Positions 2,995-60,085 of a stretch of DNA of 61,565 bases are shown piece after piece. Both the position numbers and the translations under genes were made by a program. The DNA lies in contig JAGNBF010000036.1 of assembly GCA_018004935.1 (NCBI GenBank), positions 2,789-64,353 on the forward strand, read 5' to 3'. Positions within the stretch are counted from its first letter, which is position 1; every line of letters begins with the position of its first letter. The notes under the pieces are model-generated. The model saw only the letters and a program-made list of their open reading frames with translations. It was not told the DNA's origin and did not search any database. The stretch comes from Chloroflexota bacterium. Its GTDB lineage: Bacteria; Chloroflexota; Anaerolineae; Promineifilales; Promineifilaceae.

Positions 2995-3260
2995 CTAACC
3001 CCACATCCAGGGGCGTTCGCCGCCAAACCACGCCGGAAAAGTTCCCTGCCCCTGGGGCGGGGTTGGGGGTGGGGGAAAGCCGAGTATGCAGTTATCCTGG
3101 GATATGCAGGGCGACTGCATACTCACCAAAATGAACCCGTCCCCTGATGATTCCCGAGTGCGGGAAGGGGGAACGCACTCGGCGGGCAAAATCGGGGGAT
3201 TCGCCCCCGATTTTGCCTGCCTTAAAAAACTCCCCGCCCCTGGGGGTGGGGTTGGGGGAA
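2995..3260 (-). repeat. Two hairpin cassettes with variable stems
   Basis: Read on the minus strand, both carry the cassette header (cccaaccccnccccagggg followed by cggggagttttt or cagggaactttt). The one at about 3150-3260 contains stem arms GGCAGGCAAAATCGGGGG and its near-perfect complement at about 3175-3222; the other (2995-3080) has arms built on ggcgttcgccgccaaacc. Same family as 5862-5945, 13695-13805, 17267-17375 and 17455-17570. Confidence 0.6.
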
Positions 3261-3270
3261 AGCCGAATAT

Positions 3271-3389
3271 GGCGTGGTTCAAAAGTTGGCAAATGGTGCT
3301 TAACAGTTTGTAGGGCGATTTTGTAAATCGCCCACGAGACGATTTACAAAATCGTCCTACAAATTTGTAAAGCTGATCTGAACCATGCC
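3271..3389. mobile_element. MITE family A, 119 bp
   Basis: Ends GGCGTGGTTCA (3271-3281) and TGAACCATGCC (3379-3389) are inverted repeats with one mismatch. The middle is a long palindrome of arms gtagggcgattttgtaaatcgccc and gacgatttacaaaatcgtccta. Flanking octamers ccgaatat and ctgaatat differ at one base, consistent with an 8-bp target duplication. A second copy of the same length lies at 18691-18809. Too short to code; presumably moved by a transposase encoded elsewhere. Confidence 0.85.
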
Positions 3390-5849: not shown

Positions 5850-5948
5850 CCAGCAACCCCTAACCCCGCCCCCAGGAGCAGGGAACTTTCTCATGTGCGG
5901 GTTATCGAGCGCGGCCGCGCTCGATAACCCGCACTCCTGGTGTTTCCC
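5850..5948. terminator. Hairpin cassette; 40-nt perfect palindrome
   Basis: The header cccctaaccccgcccccagg is followed by a perfect palindrome at 5895-5934 (arms GTGCGGGTTATCGAGCGCGG and its complement, no loop) centred on GCGGCCGC, then a cttcccgctgggaatcg tail. It lies between the convergent GT9 and secA genes, so a bidirectional transcription-stop role is reasonable, although no long T run follows. Member of the variable-stem cassette family. Confidence 0.6.
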
Positions 5949-5973
5949 CCTTCCCGCTGGGAATCGTTCCCGG

Positions 5974-13694: not shown

Positions 13695-13820
13695 CCCCCC
13701 CACCCCTAACCCCACACCCAGGGGCGGGAAACTTTTCTAAGGGGCATTTTTCGGGGCATTGGCCCCGAAAAATGCCCCATTGGAATTCCCCCCTTCCCGA
13801 TTTCGGGAAGGGGCAGGGGG
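13695..13820 (+). repeat. Hairpin cassette, 17-bp stem
   Basis: Header cccccacccctaaccccaca plus cccaggggcgggaaactttt, then perfect stem GGGGCATTTTTCGGGGC (13741-13757), loop ATTG, GCCCCGAAAAATGCCCC (13762-13778), then the tail ggaattccccccttcccga with a second small hairpin (cttcccgatttcgggaag). It ends 8-30 bp from the stop of the convergently read aminotransferase gene and may act as its terminator. Confidence 0.65.
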
Positions 13821-15117: not shown

Positions 15118-15235
15118 TCTTCACCTCTGGTTATACTTACCACGGTCACAAAGTGACATTTTGTTTGCGGCAACAGATGGGGTAGGTTTGGGCTGAAGAC
15201 CCATCATCCAACGATCCCAGAGGAAGGGGAGAAAC

Positions 15236-15322
15236 CTACCGGCGCGGTTTGGGGGCGTCCGCCCCTAAACTGTGCCCAGAAAAGTTCCCTGCCCCTGGGC
15301 GCGGGGTTAGGGGTGGCCTCGG
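15236..15322 (-). repeat. Hairpin cassette, degenerate stem
   Basis: Read on the minus strand: header ccacccctaaccccgcgccc, cagggaacttttctgggc, then arms cacagtttaggggcg and cgcccccaaaccgcg that pair with several mismatches. Same family as 13695-13820 and 17267-17580 but decayed. It fills most of the 255-bp gap between the aminotransferase gene and the ABC-F gene. Confidence 0.55.
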
Positions 15323-15372: not shown

Positions 15373-17007
15373 CTAAATTCGCAGATGCTGGTGGCTATGA
15401 TAGTACCGATCACGTAATTCCTGGACAACAGGATCTTTGATGTACTCCTCTAGCTTCATGGCCCGGTCAATCACCCCCCCCGGCGCTATCTCTACGATCC
15501 GGTTGGCAATCGTATCCACAAACTGGTAATCGTGAGAAGCAAACAATAACACTTCGGGGTAGTTGATAAGCCCATCATTTAAGGCTGTAATGGCTTCCAG
15601 GTCCAGATGGTTTGTTGGTTCGTCCAATACCAGGGCATTTGCGCCGCTGAGCATTATCTTGGCCAGCATACAGCGCACCTTCTCCCCCCCCGACAAAACG
15701 CGGGTTGATTTGAGGGCATCATCTCCGGAAAATAGCATCCGGCCCAGGTAGCCCCGGACGAAGGTATCGCTTTGATCGGGGGAATATTGCCGTAACCAAT
15801 CTACCAGGTTGAGATCGGTGTCGAAGAAGACGGCATTTTCTTTGGGGAAGAAGGCGGGGGTGATAGTAGTTCCCCAACTGAAGATACCATCATCCGGTTT
15901 CTGTTTTTCGGCCAATATTTCAAACAGAGCGGTTTTGACTACGTCATTGGGGCCAATGAAGGCGATTTTGTCTCCAGGGTTAACGTTTAAACTGAAACGG
16001 TGGAGTAAGGGGCGCCCTTCCTGGCTGACACAAAGTTCGTTAATGGAGAGGATAACGCGGCCGCAGGGCCGATCCGGCTTAAAATCAATGTAAGGAAATC
16101 GGCGTGCCGAAGTGGGTAACTCACCCACCGTAAGCTTATCAATGAGCTTCTTGCGTGAGGTGGCCTGGCGTGATTTAGACGCATTGGCACTGAAGCGGCG
16201 CACAAACTGCTCCAACTCTTTGATCTTCTCATCACGTTTCTTATCCGCATTCTTGCGCTGTTGCTCCGCTAACTGACTGGCCTGGTACCAAAAATCATAG
16301 TTGCCTACATACAATTGAATCTTACCAAAATCAATATCGGCGATATGGGTGCAGACGTTGTTGAGGAAATGCCGATCATGGGAAACTACGATGACTGTGT
16401 TGGTAAAGCGCATGAGGAACTCTTCCAACCAGTTAATCGAGTCCAGATCTAGTTGATTAGTCGGCTCGTCCAGGAGCAAGATATCTGGGTTGCCAAATAA
16501 CGCCTGAGCCAACAACACCCGCACCTTCTGACTGGCTTCCAAATCACGCATTAGCAGAAGATGGGTGTTTTCTTCTAGTCCCAGGTTATCTAACAGAGTG
16601 GACGCTTCCGCTTCTGCTTCATATCCTCCCAATTCAGCCAGTTCTGTCTCCAGGTCAGCGGCACGCAGGCCATCTGCTTCGCTGAAATCCGCTTTGCTGT
16701 ATATGGCATCCCGCTCTTGTAACAGGTGATACAGGCGCGGGTGGCCCATGATGACGGTTTCCAAAACCGAAAAATCATCAAAGGCAAATTGATCTTGTTG
16801 GAGCAGAGCAATCCGTTCTCTGGTTCCGGCGGCGATAAACCCTTTGTTAGGTTCAATTTGCCCGGCAATGGCCTTGAGCAAAGTGGATTTGCCTGCACCA
16901 TTCGGCCCGATCAGGCCATAGCAGTTGCCCGCCAAAAATTCTAAATTGACATCTTTAAACAACACTCGTGGCCCAAACGCCAGAGTGACATCTTGAACGG
17001 TTAACAC
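15373..17007 (-). CDS. ABC-F family ATPase (YbiT/YkpA-like)
   Basis: A 544-residue soluble protein with two ABC ATPase domains and no membrane domain. ABC-F proteins bind the ribosomal E site and act in translation rather than transport. Walker A1 IGPNGAGKSTLL (about 33-44), Walker B1 ILLLDEPTNQLD (about 176-187), a charged inter-domain linker (about 245-305), second domain Walker A region IGPNDVVKTALF (about 353-364), signature LSGGEKVR (about 440) and Walker B2 ALVLDEPTNHLD (about 459-470). The first signature reads DLEASQKVR instead of LSGGQ, and the second Walker A lacks the usual GxGK glycines. GTG start with aaggtg upstream. Monocistronic. Confidence 0.9.
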   Translation of the reverse strand: MLTVQDVTLAFGPRVLFKDVNLEFLAGNCYGLIGPNGAGKSTLLKAIAGQIEPNKGFIAAGTRERIALLQQDQFAFDDFSVLETVIMGHPRLYHLLQERDAIYSKADFSEADGLRAADLETELAELGGYEAEAEASTLLDNLGLEENTHLLLMRDLEASQKVRVLLAQALFGNPDILLLDEPTNQLDLDSINWLEEFLMRFTNTVIVVSHDRHFLNNVCTHIADIDFGKIQLYVGNYDFWYQASQLAEQQRKNADKKRDEKIKELEQFVRRFSANASKSRQATSRKKLIDKLTVGELPTSARRFPYIDFKPDRPCGRVILSINELCVSQEGRPLLHRFSLNVNPGDKIAFIGPNDVVKTALFEILAEKQKPDDGIFSWGTTITPAFFPKENAVFFDTDLNLVDWLRQYSPDQSDTFVRGYLGRMLFSGDDALKSTRVLSGGEKVRCMLAKIMLSGANALVLDEPTNHLDLEAITALNDGLINYPEVLLFASHDYQFVDTIANRIVEIAPGGVIDRAMKLEEYIKDPVVQELRDRYYHSHQHLRI

Positions 17008-17145: not shown

Positions 17146-17264
17146 ACGATTCATGAGGTTAATTGTAGTTGTTGGACGAAATTTCCAGCGGACAAGAATA
17201 ACATACAATGTTGTTTCTTGCCGCTGGTGTTGAGATCAAATTAGGGCGATTGCCTACTCGGATT

Positions 17265-17375
17265 TCCCCCACCCCTAACCCCGCCCCCAGGGGCGGGGAA
17301 CTTTTTAGGAGCCGTTTTTCGCGGGCATTCGCCCGCGAAAAACGGCTCAAATTAGTTTTCCCCCCCTTCTTGCAG
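17265..17375 (+). repeat. Hairpin cassette, 18-bp stem
   Basis: Header cccccacccctaaccccgcc plus cccaggggcggggaactttt; perfect stem GAGCCGTTTTTCGCGGGC (17309-17326), loop ATTC, complement at 17331-17348; tail ttttccccccttcttgcaga. A second cassette begins 80 bp further with the identical header but a different stem. Confidence 0.7.
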
Positions 17376-17454
17376 AGAATCGTTAGGGCGGTGGATTCAT
17401 TGGGGTGAGCAGGCAATCGCCCTGGGGATCAAATGAGGGCGATTGCCTACTCGG

Positions 17455-17572
17455 ATTTCCCCCACCCCTAACCCCGCCCCCAGGGGCGGGGAACTTGTTC
17501 TCGTGTCATTTTTCGCGGGCAGACGCCCGCGAAAAATGACACGAATGGGGTTTCCCCTTCCTGCTGTGCTGG
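17455..17572 (+). repeat. Hairpin cassette, 19-bp stem
   Basis: Identical 40-bp header to the cassette at 17265, then stem CGTGTCATTTTTCGCGGGC (17502-17520), loop AGAC, perfect complement at 17525-17543, then tail ggggtttccccttcctgctg. The inner eight base pairs match the neighbouring cassette; the outer ten differ but remain fully paired. Confidence 0.7.
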
Positions 17573-17639
17573 GATCGCAAGGGCTGGATCTTTCGTGGTA
17601 GCCATTCTATGCCTGTATTATTTCGGAAAATCTCAAAAA

Positions 17640-17874: not shown

Positions 17875-18633
17875 TCAGGGGCAAAGGTCGAGGATGGCCT
17901 GTTTGATGGCCGGGTTGACGGGGAAATGTTGGTCGAGGAAGGAGAGGATGGTGATCGCGGCCGCGGGCGTACCCTCATACCCTGGAGCCATTTGCGCTAA
18001 AGACCGGGCCACCCTCGGAAATCTCTGCTCAAACCGGCGTTCACCCACAAAAATATCCGCGTGGCCCGGTTGGGCCGTCTCGATCCGTGACGCCAGGTCT
18101 ACTACTCGCCCCAACGCATACACCTGAACAAACTGGAACGCCGATAACTTCTCCCCCCGCCGATAGCGCCCCATCCCTACATACAAATTAGTCAACGCCT
18201 CACCCAGGAGCCAATCCACCGAATGGACTGACGAGCCAGATTGTTTCACGGGAACGGCTATGGTCTCACTTACCCCCTCCCGTTTCCAGACAACCCGTCC
18301 GGCGGCAAAGGGGATATGGCTCAACTCCGCCGCTTCAAAAACGGCAAACTCACAAAACACCCCATCGGCAAAGAGCAGTTTGTAGCCATCGGCGGTATTC
18401 TGGAAATGGTAGGCGATGGGAGCCAATGAACTAAGCCAATCCAGGTTAGTCAGGAACCGTTCTTTCTGCCCTGGTTCTACAACGGCAAAAAAATCCAGGT
18501 CAGAATAATCATCCAGCCGGTCTAACTCCTGCCCCACCGACCCCAACCCCAGCAAAGCCAGGGCTTGCCCTGTCTTCTCCAGTGATTGACCGATTTCGTT
18601 CAGACGGTTTAATAATTTTTCTTGGTGTGTCAT
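17875..18633 (-). CDS. Nucleotidyltransferase-domain protein
   Basis: A 252-residue protein with the minimal nucleotidyltransferase (pol beta-like) signature near its N-terminus: LGLGSVGQELDRLDDYSDLDFF (about 28-49), that is GS followed by the D-x-D metal pair. An all-helical C-terminal half follows (LGEALTNLYVGMGRYRRGEKLSAFQFVQVYALGRV, about 142-176). The layout resembles aminoglycoside/lincosamide nucleotidyltransferase-like proteins, but no substrate can be assigned; a resistance function is not implied. ATG start. A GCGGCCGC site is read as Ala-Ala-Ala near the C-terminus. Monocistronic, flanked by repeats. Confidence 0.75.
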   Translation of the reverse strand: MTHQEKLLNRLNEIGQSLEKTGQALALLGLGSVGQELDRLDDYSDLDFFAVVEPGQKERFLTNLDWLSSLAPIAYHFQNTADGYKLLFADGVFCEFAVFEAAELSHIPFAAGRVVWKREGVSETIAVPVKQSGSSVHSVDWLLGEALTNLYVGMGRYRRGEKLSAFQFVQVYALGRVVDLASRIETAQPGHADIFVGERRFEQRFPRVARSLAQMAPGYEGTPAAAITILSFLDQHFPVNPAIKQAILDLCP

Positions 18634-18690: not shown

Positions 18691-18809
18691 GGCGTGGTTC
18701 AAAAGTCGGCAAGCTGTGCTTAAAAATTTGTAGGGCGATTTTGTAAATCGCCCACTGGACGATTTACAAAATCGTCCTACAGATTTGTAAAGCTAACCTG
18801 AACCATGCC
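18691..18809. mobile_element. MITE family A, 119 bp, 8-bp duplication
   Basis: Ends GGCGTGGTTCA (18691-18701) and TGAACCATGCC (18799-18809). ATTTATTT lies directly outside both ends (18683-18690 and 18810-18817): a perfect 8-bp target duplication. Same length and central palindrome as 3271-3389. The right-hand duplication falls at the very end of accC and includes its stop region. Confidence 0.92.
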
Positions 18810-20323: not shown

Positions 20324-20719
20324 AAATAAACCTCAGTGCCCTTGTTCAGATAATGATAATCTTCATACAATAAAGGTAACTATTCAGGCAGTTACGCACC
20401 AACCGCGACAAAAATTGTCACTGTTTGTTGATGGTGCACAGCCTGGAAAGGCTGTGCATATAACCGTTCAATTGAATTCATTCATCTGCCAGGCCCGCCC
20501 AGTCGTAAAACGACCGGGCTATTTTTACAAAGGCCGCTGGCCTGGGCTTTTAGCCCGCAAAGCTTCGTATGTTTAGCCCGGCGATTTGACCGCCGGGTGG
20601 GGTAACTGAACGCTCACCCGTTCAGACAGTAGAGACGCAAAATTTTGCGTCTCTACAAAAGTCCGATACAACGGGATATGGTCTGAGTATAACGTGCCAA
20701 AAAGGGGCTGACTACCAAA
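20324..20719. other. Divergent intergenic region, accC and kinase
   Basis: About 400 bp between divergently transcribed accC and the histidine kinase gene. It contains a family B element (20460-20617) and a short inverted repeat gagacgcaaaattttgcgtctc (20632-20653), just upstream of the kinase start. Promoters for both genes must lie here, but no hexamer pair stands out. Confidence 0.5.
20460..20617. mobile_element. MITE family B, 158 bp
   Basis: Same length as the copies at 11198 and 24905. Ends ataaccgttcaat and actgaacgctcac are decayed inverted repeats. Interior motifs cgtaaaacgaccgggcta, ggccgctggcctgggctttt and cggcgatttgaccgccggg match. Flanks show no duplication, so the insertion is old. 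Confidence 0.75.
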
Positions 20720-24904: not shown

Positions 24905-25062
24905 GTAAGCGTTCAGTCATATAAATCCATTCGCCAGACCCGCCCGGACGTAAAACGACCGGCCTGTTGTTACAAAGGCCGCTGGCCCGGGGTTTTAATC
25001 CGCAGGGCCTGGTATGTTTAGCCCGGCGGTTTGACCGCCGGGCGGGATAACTGAACGCTTAT
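24905..25062. mobile_element. MITE family B, 158 bp
   Basis: Ends GTAAGCGTTCAGT (24905-24917) and actgaacgcttat (25050-25062). Flanks actcacac and actcacgc match at 7 of 8 bases, a slightly eroded duplication. It sits 15 bp after the trpC stop, where its inverted ends could serve as transcription stop. Confidence 0.85.
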
Positions 25063-55813: not shown

Positions 55814-56510
55814 TAAGACCTCTACAAATGTAGCAATAACCAACAAATAAGTTGAACATTTTTGGGAAGCAACCATCCTTGAAATGTTCAGGTTGATAAA
55901 TGCGGCTTGCGGCTTGTCGCAATGTAGTATGAATAGCCTCATCGTTGCGACGGTGGGGCTGTTTTGTTTTACACTAGTGTACAGAGCAGATTCGTATCCG
56001 GCGTAAGCCGGGTGTTGTGTAGGAATGAGGGAAAGGGGAGTAGGCAAAGCCTGCAACTACTCGCCCTGGTGCTGTGTAGGAACGTGGGGATAACGGGTCG
56101 GTTTGCGGCCGCGTTTGCCATCGCAAAGTGAGTGAGCGTTTCGAGCGAGGTAACGAGCAAGAGCGAACGAACGTAACTGGAACAACTGAGAACATGGCCT
56201 GTTGCGGCCGCGTTGGAATCGAGTTAGCACGGCTTGCCGTGCGCTGTTGGGGGAACAGAGAATTTCGCCAGTCGCGGCCGCGTTGCTATTTCCCAAAGCG
56301 AAGCGTCAGCGTAGCGCCGCTGGGCCAATTGTTGTTTGACCTAGCCGGTAGGTAAGTGAGAGAGCGTTTACGCCTGCGGCCGCGGGCGTAGCGAACGAAC
56401 GGGGTTGGTATTGTGTAGAACTTCACCAGATGCGGCCGCGTTTGATGCCTGTTCACCACGGCTTGCCGTGCGCCGTGGGAAACCAGGAGTTTGACTGCCT
56501 CAAAGGAAAG

Positions 56511-56553
56511 CCCGCGCCTGGCGAGCCTTTAGGCGAGCAAACTGCGGCGCGGG
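56511..56553. repeat. Array-end hairpin, left
   Basis: Reads cccgcgcctggcgagccttt then aggcgagcaaactgcggcgcggg; the same element is at 60086-60128. Arms cccgcgcc/ggcgcggg and gcgagcctt/aaggcgagc-like text pair. It marks a boundary or an inserted unit of the array. Confidence 0.6.
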
Positions 56554-59500
56554 CGTAGATGGATTGCGGTGGGCCTTGCCAGTAGCAGGGCCTCGGTCGG
56601 TGGGGAGTGGGAATAACATAGAACCTGGCCTTTTGCGGCCGCGTTGGAACTGCGTTAGCACGGCTTGCCGTGCGCCGTTGGGAGAACATCGAACTTAGCC
56701 GGTCGCGGCCGCGTTCCCACTGCCCAAAGCAAAGCGTCAGCGTAGCGCCCCTGGCACAACAGTTGTTTGACTTGATCCGTAGGTAAGTGAGAGAGCGTTT
56801 ACGCCTGCGGCCGCGGGCGTAGCGAACGAACGGTGTGAGAATAACTTAGACCCCCTTTTTTGCGGCCGCGTTGGAACTGAGTTAGCACGGCTTGCCGTGC
56901 GCCGTTGGAAGAACAAAAAACCTGGCCGGTTGCGGCCGCGTTCCCATCCCCCAAAGCGAAGCGTCAGCGTAGCGCCCCTGGCCCAACAGTTGTTTGACTT
57001 CACCAATATGAAAGTGAGAGAGCGTTTACGCCTGCGGCCGCGGGCGTAGCGAACGAACGATGTAGGGAGCACAGAAATAGATGGACGTTTGCGGCCGCGT
57101 TCCCATTACCCAAAGCGAAGCGTCAGCGTAGCGCCGCTGGGCCAATTGTTGTTTGACCTGACCTGTGGAAAGTGAGTGAGCGTTTACGCCTGCGGCCGCG
57201 GGCGTAGCGAACGAACGATGTGGAGAGAATAGAAATAGATGGCCGTTTGCGGCCGCGTTGGAACTGAGTTAGCACGGCTTGCCGTGCGCCGTTGGGAGAA
57301 CAGAGAACTTGGCCGGTCGCGGCCGCGTTCCCATACCCCAAAGCGAAGCGTCAGCGTAGCGCCGCTGGGCCAATGGTTGTTTGACTTGACCTGTGGAAAG
57401 TGAGTGAGCGTTTACGCCTGCACCAGCGGGCGTAGCGAACGAACGGGGTGGGGGAACAGAGTACTTTGCTGAGTGCGGCCGCGTTGAAACTGAGTTAGCA
57501 CGGCTTGCCGTGCGCCCCTGGCACAACAGTTGTTTGACTTCACCAACATGAAAGTGAGAGAGCGTTTACGCCTGCGGCCGCGGGCGTAGCGAACGAACGT
57601 AGCTGGAACAACTGAGAACCTGGGTGATTGCGGCCGCGTGGGAATCTAGTTAGCACGGCTTGCCGTGCGCCGTTGGGAGAACAGAGAACTTAGCCAGTCG
57701 CGGCCGTGTTCCCACCACCCAAAGCGAAGCGCCAGCGTAGCGCCCCTGGCCCAACAGTTGTTTGACTTCACCAACATGAAAGTGAGAGAGCGTTTACGCC
57801 TGCGGCCGCGGGCGTAGCGAACGAACGATGTGGGAATAACTTAGAACCCAACTTTTTTGCGGCCGCGTTGGAACTGAGTTAGCACGGCAAGCCGTGCGCC
57901 GTTGGGAGAACAGAGAACTTGGCCGGTCGCGGCCGCGTTCCCATCATCCAAAGCGAAGCGTCAGCGTAGCGCCCCTAGGCCAATTGTTGTTTGACCGGAC
58001 CGGTAGATAAGTGAGAGAGCGTTTACGCCTGCGGCCGCAGGCGTAGCGAACGAACGGGCTAGAAATAACGTAAGACCCAACTTTTTGCGGCCGTGTTGGA
58101 ATCGAGTTAGCACGGCCTGCCGTGCGCCGTTGGAAGAACAGAGAACTTGGCTGGTCGCGGCCGCGTTCCCATAACCCAAAGCGTATCGTTGCTGGGCCAA
58201 TTGTTGTTTGACTTGGCCGGTAGGTAAGTGAGAGAGCGTTTACGCCCGCGGCGGCGGGCGTAGCAAACGAACGGCGAGGGGAGAACAGAGAACCTAACTT
58301 TTTGCGGCCGCGTTGGAATCGAGTTAGCACGGCTTGCCGTGCGCCGTTGGCAGAACAGAGAACTTGGCCGGTCGCGGCCGCGTTCCCATTACCCAAAGCG
58401 AAGCGTCAGCGTAGCGTCCCTAGGCCAATTGTTATTTGACCTTGCCGGTAAGTAAGTGAGAGAGCGTTTACGCCCGCGGCCGCGGGCGTAGCGAACGAAC
58501 GGGGTGGGAATAACATTAGAACCTTGCTTTTTCGCGGCCGCATTGGAACTGAGTTAGCACGGCTTGTCGTGCGCCGTTGGGAGAAGAGAGAACTTAGCCG
58601 GTCGCGGCCGCGTTCCTATTCCTCAAAGCGAAGCGTCAGCGTAGCGCCCCTAGACCAATGGTTGTTTGATTTGGTCTGTGGAAAGTGAGTGAGCGTTTAC
58701 GCCCGCTGGCGCGGGCATAGCGAACGAACGATGTGTGAATAACTTAGAACCCAACATTGTTGCGGCCGCGTTGGAACTGAGTTAGCACGGCTTGCCGTGC
58801 GTCGTTGGGAGAACAGAGAACTTAGCCGGTCGCGGCCGCGTTCCCATCACCCAAAGCGAAGCGTCAGCGTAGCGCACGTGGGCCATTAACTGTTTGACTT
58901 GGCCGGTTGGTAAGTGAGTGAGCGTTTACGCCTGCGGCCGCGGGCGTAGCGAACGAACGGGGTGGGTGTAACTTAGAACCTTGCCGTGCGCCGTTGGGAG
59001 AATAGAGAACCTGGCCGGTTGCGGCCGCGTTCTCATTCCCCAAAGCGAAGCGTCAGCGTAGCGCCGCTGGGCCAACAGTTGTTTGACCTGGCCAGTAGAG
59101 CAGTGAGTGAGCGTTTACGCCTGCGGCCGCGGGCGTAGCGAACGAACGGGGCGGGAATAACTTAGAACCTTGCTGGTCGCGGCCGCGTTGGAATCTAATT
59201 AGCACGGCTTGCCGTGCGCCGTTGGCAGAACAGAGAACTTGGCCGGTCGCGGCCGCGTTCCCATCACCAAAAGCGAAGCATCAGCGTAGCGCCCCTGGCC
59301 CAACAGTTGTTTGATCTGGCCGGTAGGTAAGTGAGAGAGCGTTTACGCCTGCGGCCGCGGGCGTAGCGAACGAATGGGGCGGGAATAACGTAGAAACCTG
59401 GCTGTTTGCGGCCGCGTTGGAACTGAGTTAGCACGGCCTGCCGTGCGCCGTTGGGAGAACATAGAACTTAGCCAGTCGCGGCCGCGTTCCCATCACCAAA

Positions 59501-60085
59501 AGCGAAGCATCAGCGTAGCGCCCCTGGTCCAACAGTTGTTTGACTTGGCCGGTAGATAAGTGAGAGAGCGTTTACGCCTGCGGCCGCGGGCGTAGCGAAC
59601 GCATGCACGACAATAATGGAAAACCCAACTTTTTGCGGCCGCGTTGGAATCGAGTTAGCACGGCTTGCCGTGCGCCGTTGGAAGAACAGAGAACTTGGCC
59701 GGTCGCGGCCGCGTTTCCACCATCCAAAGCGAAGCATCAGCGTAGCGCCCCTGGCCCAATGGTTGTTTGACTTGACTGGTAGAGCAGTGAGTGAGCGTTT
59801 ACGCCTGCGGCCGCGGGCGTAGCGAACGAACGGGATAGAAATAACATAAGACCCAACTTTTTGCGGCCGCGTTGGAACTGAGTTAGCACGGCTTGCCGTG
59901 CGCCGTTGGAAGAACATAGAACTTGGCTGGTTGCGGCCGCGTTCCCACCACCTAAAGCGTAGCGCCCCTGGCCCAATGGCCGTTTGACTTGGCTGGTAGA
60001 GCAGTGAGTGAGCGTTTACGCCTGCGGCCGCGGGCGTAGCGAACGGCTTGATTCATTGGGAGCTTGAGTGTCATCAAGGGGTAGC

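Follow-up and report, generated by a model that had tools for sequence, protein, structure and literature searches.

The window, that is, the whole 61.6-kb stretch of DNA analyzed here, contains seven matches to a conserved header sequence, located at 5857, 13703, 17272 and 17465 on the plus strand and at 15313, 3257 and 3068 on the minus strand. Five of these headers are accompanied by long hairpins, and two belong to decayed copies. Two of the cassettes, copy 1 (17243-17423) and copy 2 (17436-17620), are arranged head to tail between two minus-strand genes, one of which is a putative ABC-type ATPase gene, named from its translation, with its closest relatives in MAGs titled Anaerolineae and Chloroflexota. 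The features are:

about 3000-3068, minus strand: truncated copy, from which most of the hairpin is gone
3150-3257, minus strand: family-H copy with a variant header and an imperfect hairpin (14 perfect pairs at 3185-3217)
5857-5965, plus strand: family-F copy with header, 19-bp hairpin at 5895-5934 (self-complementary loop GC) and tail
13703-13800, plus strand: family-B copy with header, 17-bp hairpin at 13741-13778 (loop ATTG) and tail hairpin
15230-15313, minus strand: family-E copy with a decayed stem (~15241-15277) and several one-arm changes
15373-17007, minus strand: putative ABC-type ATPase gene, one flank of the cassette pair
17234-17241: candidate target-site repeat GATCAAAT, judged from the sequence, left of copy 1 and recurring at 17427-17434 between both copies
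17243-17259, plus strand: left terminal inverted repeat AGGGCGATTGCCTACTC of copy 1 (family A), with 343 such ends genome-wide
17272-17305, plus strand: header of copy 1, including a 20-nt header hairpin at 17279-17298
17309-17348, plus strand: variable hairpin of copy 1 (family A), with an 18-bp perfect stem and the loop ATTC
17349-17372, plus strand: tail of copy 1, ending in TTTTCCCCCCCTTCTTG
17407-17423, plus strand: right terminal inverted repeat of copy 1 (family A)
17436-17452, plus strand: left terminal inverted repeat of copy 2 (family A), with 97% identity to copy 1 across 73 nt
17465-17498, plus strand: header of copy 2 and junction region between a family-A left part and a family-G right part
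17501-17544, plus strand: variable hairpin of copy 2 (family G), with a 20-bp perfect stem and the loop AGAC
17545-17620, plus strand: family-G right part of copy 2, ending in GGATCTTTCGTGGTAGCCATTCTA
17875-18633, minus strand: 252-aa ORF, the other flank of the cassette pair

Perfect stems of 17-20 bp were found in four window copies: those at 5857 (family F, stem beginning GTGCGGGTT, 19 bp), 13703 (family B, GGGGCA, 17 bp), 17272 (family A, GAGCCG, 18 bp) and 17465 (family G, TCGTGTC, 20 bp). These hairpins are not due to chance, since simple arithmetic gives an expectation of ~3e-5 perfect hairpins of at least 17 bp with a loop of 2-8 nt per 61.6 kb, and single-stranded DNA folding of the window hairpins yields z-scores from -6.2 to -7.6. 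In an Rfam search of the window, a tRNA was the sole match, and none fell on the cassettes.

Other repeats are also present in the window. The octamer GCGGCCGC, a highly iterated palindrome that resembles cyanobacterial HIP1 with a different sequence, occurs 133 times here, as compared to a single occurrence of GCGATCGC, and 3739 times in ~2.4 Mb of the genome (one per ~640 bp, at 52.5% GC). A ~4-kb array at 56086-60044 consists of ~228-bp tandem repeats in 13-19 units with no long ORF across it; the units contain GCGGCCGC and a CACGGC-TT-GCCGTG hairpin, the loop of which varies between TT, AA and CT. Two separate palindrome families were identified, one starting with GTAGGGCGATTTTGTAAATCGCCC (191-257, 3303-3369, 18723-18789) and the other with the sequence TAGCCCGGCGGTTTGACCGCCGGGC (443-485, 1771-1813, 20574-20616, 25019-25061), in which the loop flips rarely.

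Anatomy and distribution of the elements

The header is matched 522 times with at most 3 mismatches in the 7.98-Mb genome (229 contigs) that contains the window, while the reversed header used as a control gave 0 matches. The header is missing from all 399 other genomes sampled from the phylum and from all 38 near relatives examined, and the stretches fetched from syntenic relatives (L181-L187) contain no cassette-like hairpins. The detailed analysis covers about 261 elements from ~2.4 Mb of the genome, which were sampled by their header and never by their stem. This part of the genome has 354 header matches; a hairpin with a score of 12 pairs or more follows 260 of them, and 214 of these 260 hairpins are perfect. 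The initial annotation described cassettes with a common header, each enclosing a perfect 17-20 bp stem; the cassettes are real, with two of the window copies decayed, and the perfect stems are frequent rather than universal.

From left to right, each element consists of an end sequence, a C-rich stretch, the header hairpin CCCCGCCCC-CA-GGGGCGGGG, the sequence AACTTTTT, the variable hairpin (17-20 bp stem, 2-4 nt loop), a C-rich tail that contains a short hairpin, and the second end sequence. Several unrelated types of ends surround this one common hairpin core. Type A ends are formed by AGGGCGATTGCATACTC and its inverted copy, in elements of about 165-195 bp. Several copies are flanked by repeats of 10-11 bp, which as target duplications were scored by eye with 1-nt offsets and include one exact 11-bp case. 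Type B elements, which run from TTGTCGTTTAAAAAATTAATCAGG to GATTAAAAATTTAATGAACAA (about 180-210 bp), sit at the centers of other palindromes and have no target duplication, and type D elements, which run from TATACTGTCAAAGGGC to GGTAAGTATA (about 260-275 bp), have no clear one. The palindromes entered by family-B elements include the loops of the hairpin cassettes themselves (L036, L120, L049, L050 and others). Whole elements with flanking sequence also occur in tandem arrays, as at L043:8570-9210 (5 x 158 bp) and L042:14367-14800; the arrays in L043, L044 and L042 are apparently recent and preserve stem changes limited to one arm as well as a loop flip under way.

The elements are thus short and non-coding with terminal inverted repeats, as are MITEs. 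Searches of the genome with transposase profiles returned 0 matches for PF01609, 2 for PF13358 and 2 for PF02371, none of them with cassette ends, and blastn searches for the ends revealed no autonomous transposon carrying such end pairs in ~2.4 Mb. We therefore refer to the elements as MITE-like rather than as MITEs. More than 500 small mobile elements coexist with very few transposases of the three tested families. The idea that the core moves independently as a unit of fixed extent was rejected, because the histogram of boundaries has no single edge. In summary, a swarm of MITE-like elements, small and non-coding, is peculiar to this genome, and the cassette forms their hairpin-bearing core.

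Paired changes in the stem arms and inversion of the loops

We aligned 261 hairpins to 12 subfamily stems and scored 4749 pairs. Complementary changes of both partners were observed in 104 cells (58 distinct), as compared to ~0.7 expected from the one-arm rates, while non-complementary double changes were found in only 6 of the 4749 pairs. The earlier suggestion of a copying process that alters the two arms jointly is thereby well supported within subfamilies, where the paired changes are often transversions. Correction of the arms is incomplete, since changes restricted to one arm (196 cells) exceed the paired ones, and in subfamily B elements with both ends intact the ratio of one-arm to paired changes is 13 to 1. 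In subfamily D, both sides have changed in 8 of 19 pairs (12 distinct stems), a value matched in 0 of 500 shuffles, while slid structures score 0; the test of subfamily C agrees with that of subfamily D. The initial annotation had named single changes at the rate of the flanks as an argument against such copying. In subfamily D, which is the best aligned, the rate is indeed that of the flanks (2.6% divergence in the stem arms versus 2.1-2.8% in the ends), but the kind of change is not, so that the stems are coupled rather than hypermutable.

Among distinct interior changes, the ratio of transitions to transversions is 27:24 for paired changes and 66:14 for one-arm changes (p = 0.0004), and this richness in transversions argues against a stepwise route via G.U pairs. 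The one-arm mismatches comprise 32 G.U and 34 A.C on the header strand. This parity indicates that neither RNA strand is favored, which argues against selection on one transcript. The ratio of paired to one-arm changes also depends on the position in the stem: counted from the loop, it is 9:27 in pairs 1-4, rises to 27:22 in pairs 6-13 and falls to 19:48 beyond them (p = 0.008 and 0.004 for the contrasts). Uncertain stem ends may account for some of the paucity of paired changes beside the loop and at the base. The concentration in mid-stem is as predicted by fold-back copying, where the loop-proximal pairs would serve as primer, the base would mark the return to the template, and the middle would be copied. 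The profile has the same direction in both halves of the data, which were split from one set as a check rather than as an independent test, with p < 0.05 only in the larger half. In several copies the hairpin has been lost between short direct repeats, joining TGGTGCGGTTT to CCCCCC or AAGGGGCATT to GGAATT, an outcome expected of slippage across a hairpin.

A further signature, absent from the initial annotation, is the inversion of the loops, which come in reverse-complement pairs (ATTC/GAAT, GA/TC, GTCT/AGAC, CTTC/GAAG, GAA/TTC). Relative to the header, the two loop orientations are distributed 141:100 in ten subfamilies. Loop orientation was discordant in 0 of 7 copy pairs with less than 2% flank divergence and in 54% of 39 pairs at 2-4%, the latter drawn from 29 elements and hence not independent, and the discordant share remains near half at flank divergences above 4%. 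Loop orientation is not clustered on the flank trees of subfamilies B and D; these trees are weak and poorly resolved, so that several of the flips may be ancient and common to more than one copy. In a 184-bp tandem triplication (about L044:7172-7740), the loop is GAAG in copy 1 and CTTC in the two other copies, and copies 1 and 2 differ by one base besides the loop. The header hairpin loop of the same elements is CA in 176 cases and TG in 4, and other repeated palindromes of the genome have loop orientations of 25:3 and 10:1. Flipping therefore appears to track stem length, shorter palindromes flipping only rarely, in a comparison that is confounded by element age. Inversion on its own leaves one-arm mismatches in place, so that flips can be close to saturated with such mismatches still present; of the two processes, arm copying is slower.

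Proposed template switching and alternative explanations

We consider it likely that these patterns arise from template switching during replication at hairpin DNA, of which loop inversion is an expected companion. According to this model, the long palindrome would fold into a DNA hairpin or cruciform while being replicated. In an intrastrand switch, the nascent first arm would fold back with a few loop-proximal pairs as primer, and the arm would be copied outward before the polymerase goes back to its template, so that a one-arm substitution would either become a perfect paired change or be erased. In an interstrand switch, the polymerase would cross via the loop to the other parental strand, inverting the loop, while the stem would otherwise keep its sequence. 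Occasionally the hairpin would be deleted by slippage across it. The process probably operates on cellular DNA and does not depend on selection at the RNA level.

Crossover between the two arms, resolution of a cruciform, or gene conversion between copies in inverted register could instead invert the loops, which we regard as unlikely. The persistence of one-arm mismatches despite near-saturated flips is what such processes would give, since inversion alone retains these mismatches, but they yield no paired substitutions, for which a second process would be needed. Moreover, arms of 17-20 bp are short for RecA-dependent crossover.

Template switching is not the source of the large stem differences within the window. 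When left end, stem and right end were each classified separately, the stem type was found to travel with the right part, and among the roughly 90 elements in which both ends could be assigned to a type, 10 had a foreign left end. Copy 2 is one such mismatch, with a family-A left end, a family-G stem and right part, and a join that falls inside the conserved header. The different stems of the pair at 17.27 and 17.47 kb thus reflect module exchange rather than the rewriting in place first proposed, and the large differences among the window copies are due to different subfamilies and header-joined chimeras. Some chimeras may be assembly joins, as the 229 contigs are often broken at these repeats, and any individual chimera may be an assembly error. 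These mismatched left ends, the window pair included, are also what supports the view that subfamily history and module exchange at the header account for all stem variety with no copying within stems. We consider this improbable: private single-pair changes occur in otherwise identical subfamily D stems with no donor subfamily, and loop inversion with no change in the flanks is left unexplained. As a full account it is refuted, and for the differences between subfamilies it still holds true.

It is also conceivable, if doubtful, that the core acts as a hairpin module which is exchanged by recombination among unrelated element ends via the conserved header, and that fold-back copying from the conserved inner stem then re-templates the outer arm. 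Inner and outer stem blocks are found in many combinations; for example, the inner block TTTTTCGCGGGC is paired with the outer block GAGCCG or TCGTGTCA, and the outer block GGCGCGG with four different inner blocks. No re-templating intermediates were caught among the analyzed elements. If this were so, exchange and template switching together would generate long, perfect stems of new sequence, each in a single step.

Selection for a functional RNA hairpin, such as a terminator or an mRNA-end stabilizer, would purge unpaired variants and keep compensatory ones. The long perfect stems, the intergenic location and the GC-rich header hairpin followed by T-rich sequence are in line with this explanation, and the header hairpin with its T-run, taken alone, looks terminator-like. 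With genes called crudely as the longest non-overlapping ORFs of at least 110 codons, 35 of 252 cassettes lie inside ORFs, as compared to 76% of random positions, and coding sequence is thus avoided. Yet, relative to the genes around them, the copies between genes are distributed as random intergenic positions would be (56% tandem, 28% divergent and 17% convergent, versus 59, 25 and 17% at random). The nearest gene end is a 3' end for 93 copies and a 5' end for 89, and the proposal that copies often lie after genes is therefore not upheld, nor is that of a role as terminator or at mRNA ends. Where a copy lies between two co-oriented genes, its header is on the strand opposite to them in 66 cases and on their strand in 35 (p = 0.003), a bias that would fit the purging of copies that terminate genes; given this strand bias and the random placement, the cassettes were not classified as intrinsic terminators. 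Neither gene placement nor strand provided positive evidence for a host function. Together with the lack of a preference for G.U over A.C, the frequent transversions, the freely inverting loops and the lack of Rfam matches to the cassettes, this makes selection on RNA very unlikely as the cause. That the signals are an artefact of assembly or amplification is very improbable: repeats do lie at contig ends in this assembly of 229 contigs, but a hairpin of ~40 nt should fit within one short read, and the signals recur across hundreds of unique contexts and are limited to long stems.

Relation to known systems

The mutational mechanism is known already; its scale and its neutral natural setting are new. 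Functional RNA structures are usually recognized by compensatory changes in their stems. Here, paired changes have arisen in elements with no sign of RNA-level constraint and no strand preference, and covariation alone thus cannot show RNA function. The two switching modes have previously been studied only with reporters or as rare events, and the 500 copies permit intrastrand and interstrand switching to be measured separately, by stem position and length.

As for other repeats, the elements resemble the MITE/SMR sequences of Haloquadratum (PMC3119063) in being short, non-coding and of high copy number with terminal inverted repeats, and also in that one type (A) has candidate duplications of 10-11 bp and another (B) has none and a strong target preference. 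Unlike those, they have unrelated end types around one core and no partner transposase was found. REP palindromes (PMC3733652) are likewise of high copy number and intergenic, with subfamilies that differ by complementary stem changes, but have 5-13 bp stems and GTAG/CGTC tags, whereas the stems here are 17-20 bp and embedded in elements with terminal inverted repeats. As no such tag lies beside the stems, the cassettes were not classified as REP elements. Integron attC sites were considered and set aside on general knowledge.

In E. coli, template switching at a quasipalindrome makes an imperfect inverted repeat of ~18 bp perfect in an intramolecular reaction (PMC7202029). That system is a designed lacZ reporter, whereas the present genome has hundreds of natural palindromes, whose loops are inverted as often as they are in the original orientation. 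Template switching has also been held responsible for instantaneous compensatory changes and loop inversions in the evolution of RNA hairpins (PMC8794818). In rRNA, where selection acts on the loops, such inversions are very rare, with GAAA 99 times more common than UUUC (PMC8794818); in contrast, loop inversion in the cassettes appears to be unconstrained. Published cases of bacterial template switching favored transversions (PMC8604942). In Saccharomyces, the same two footprints have been described, namely homogenization of inverted-repeat arms and inversion of the spacer, with ten inversions in coding genes (PMC8604942); here they are found in non-coding mobile elements with inversion near saturation. 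The yeast inversions have arms of over 9 bp (PMC8604942), with which the relation between flipping and stem length in the present elements agrees.
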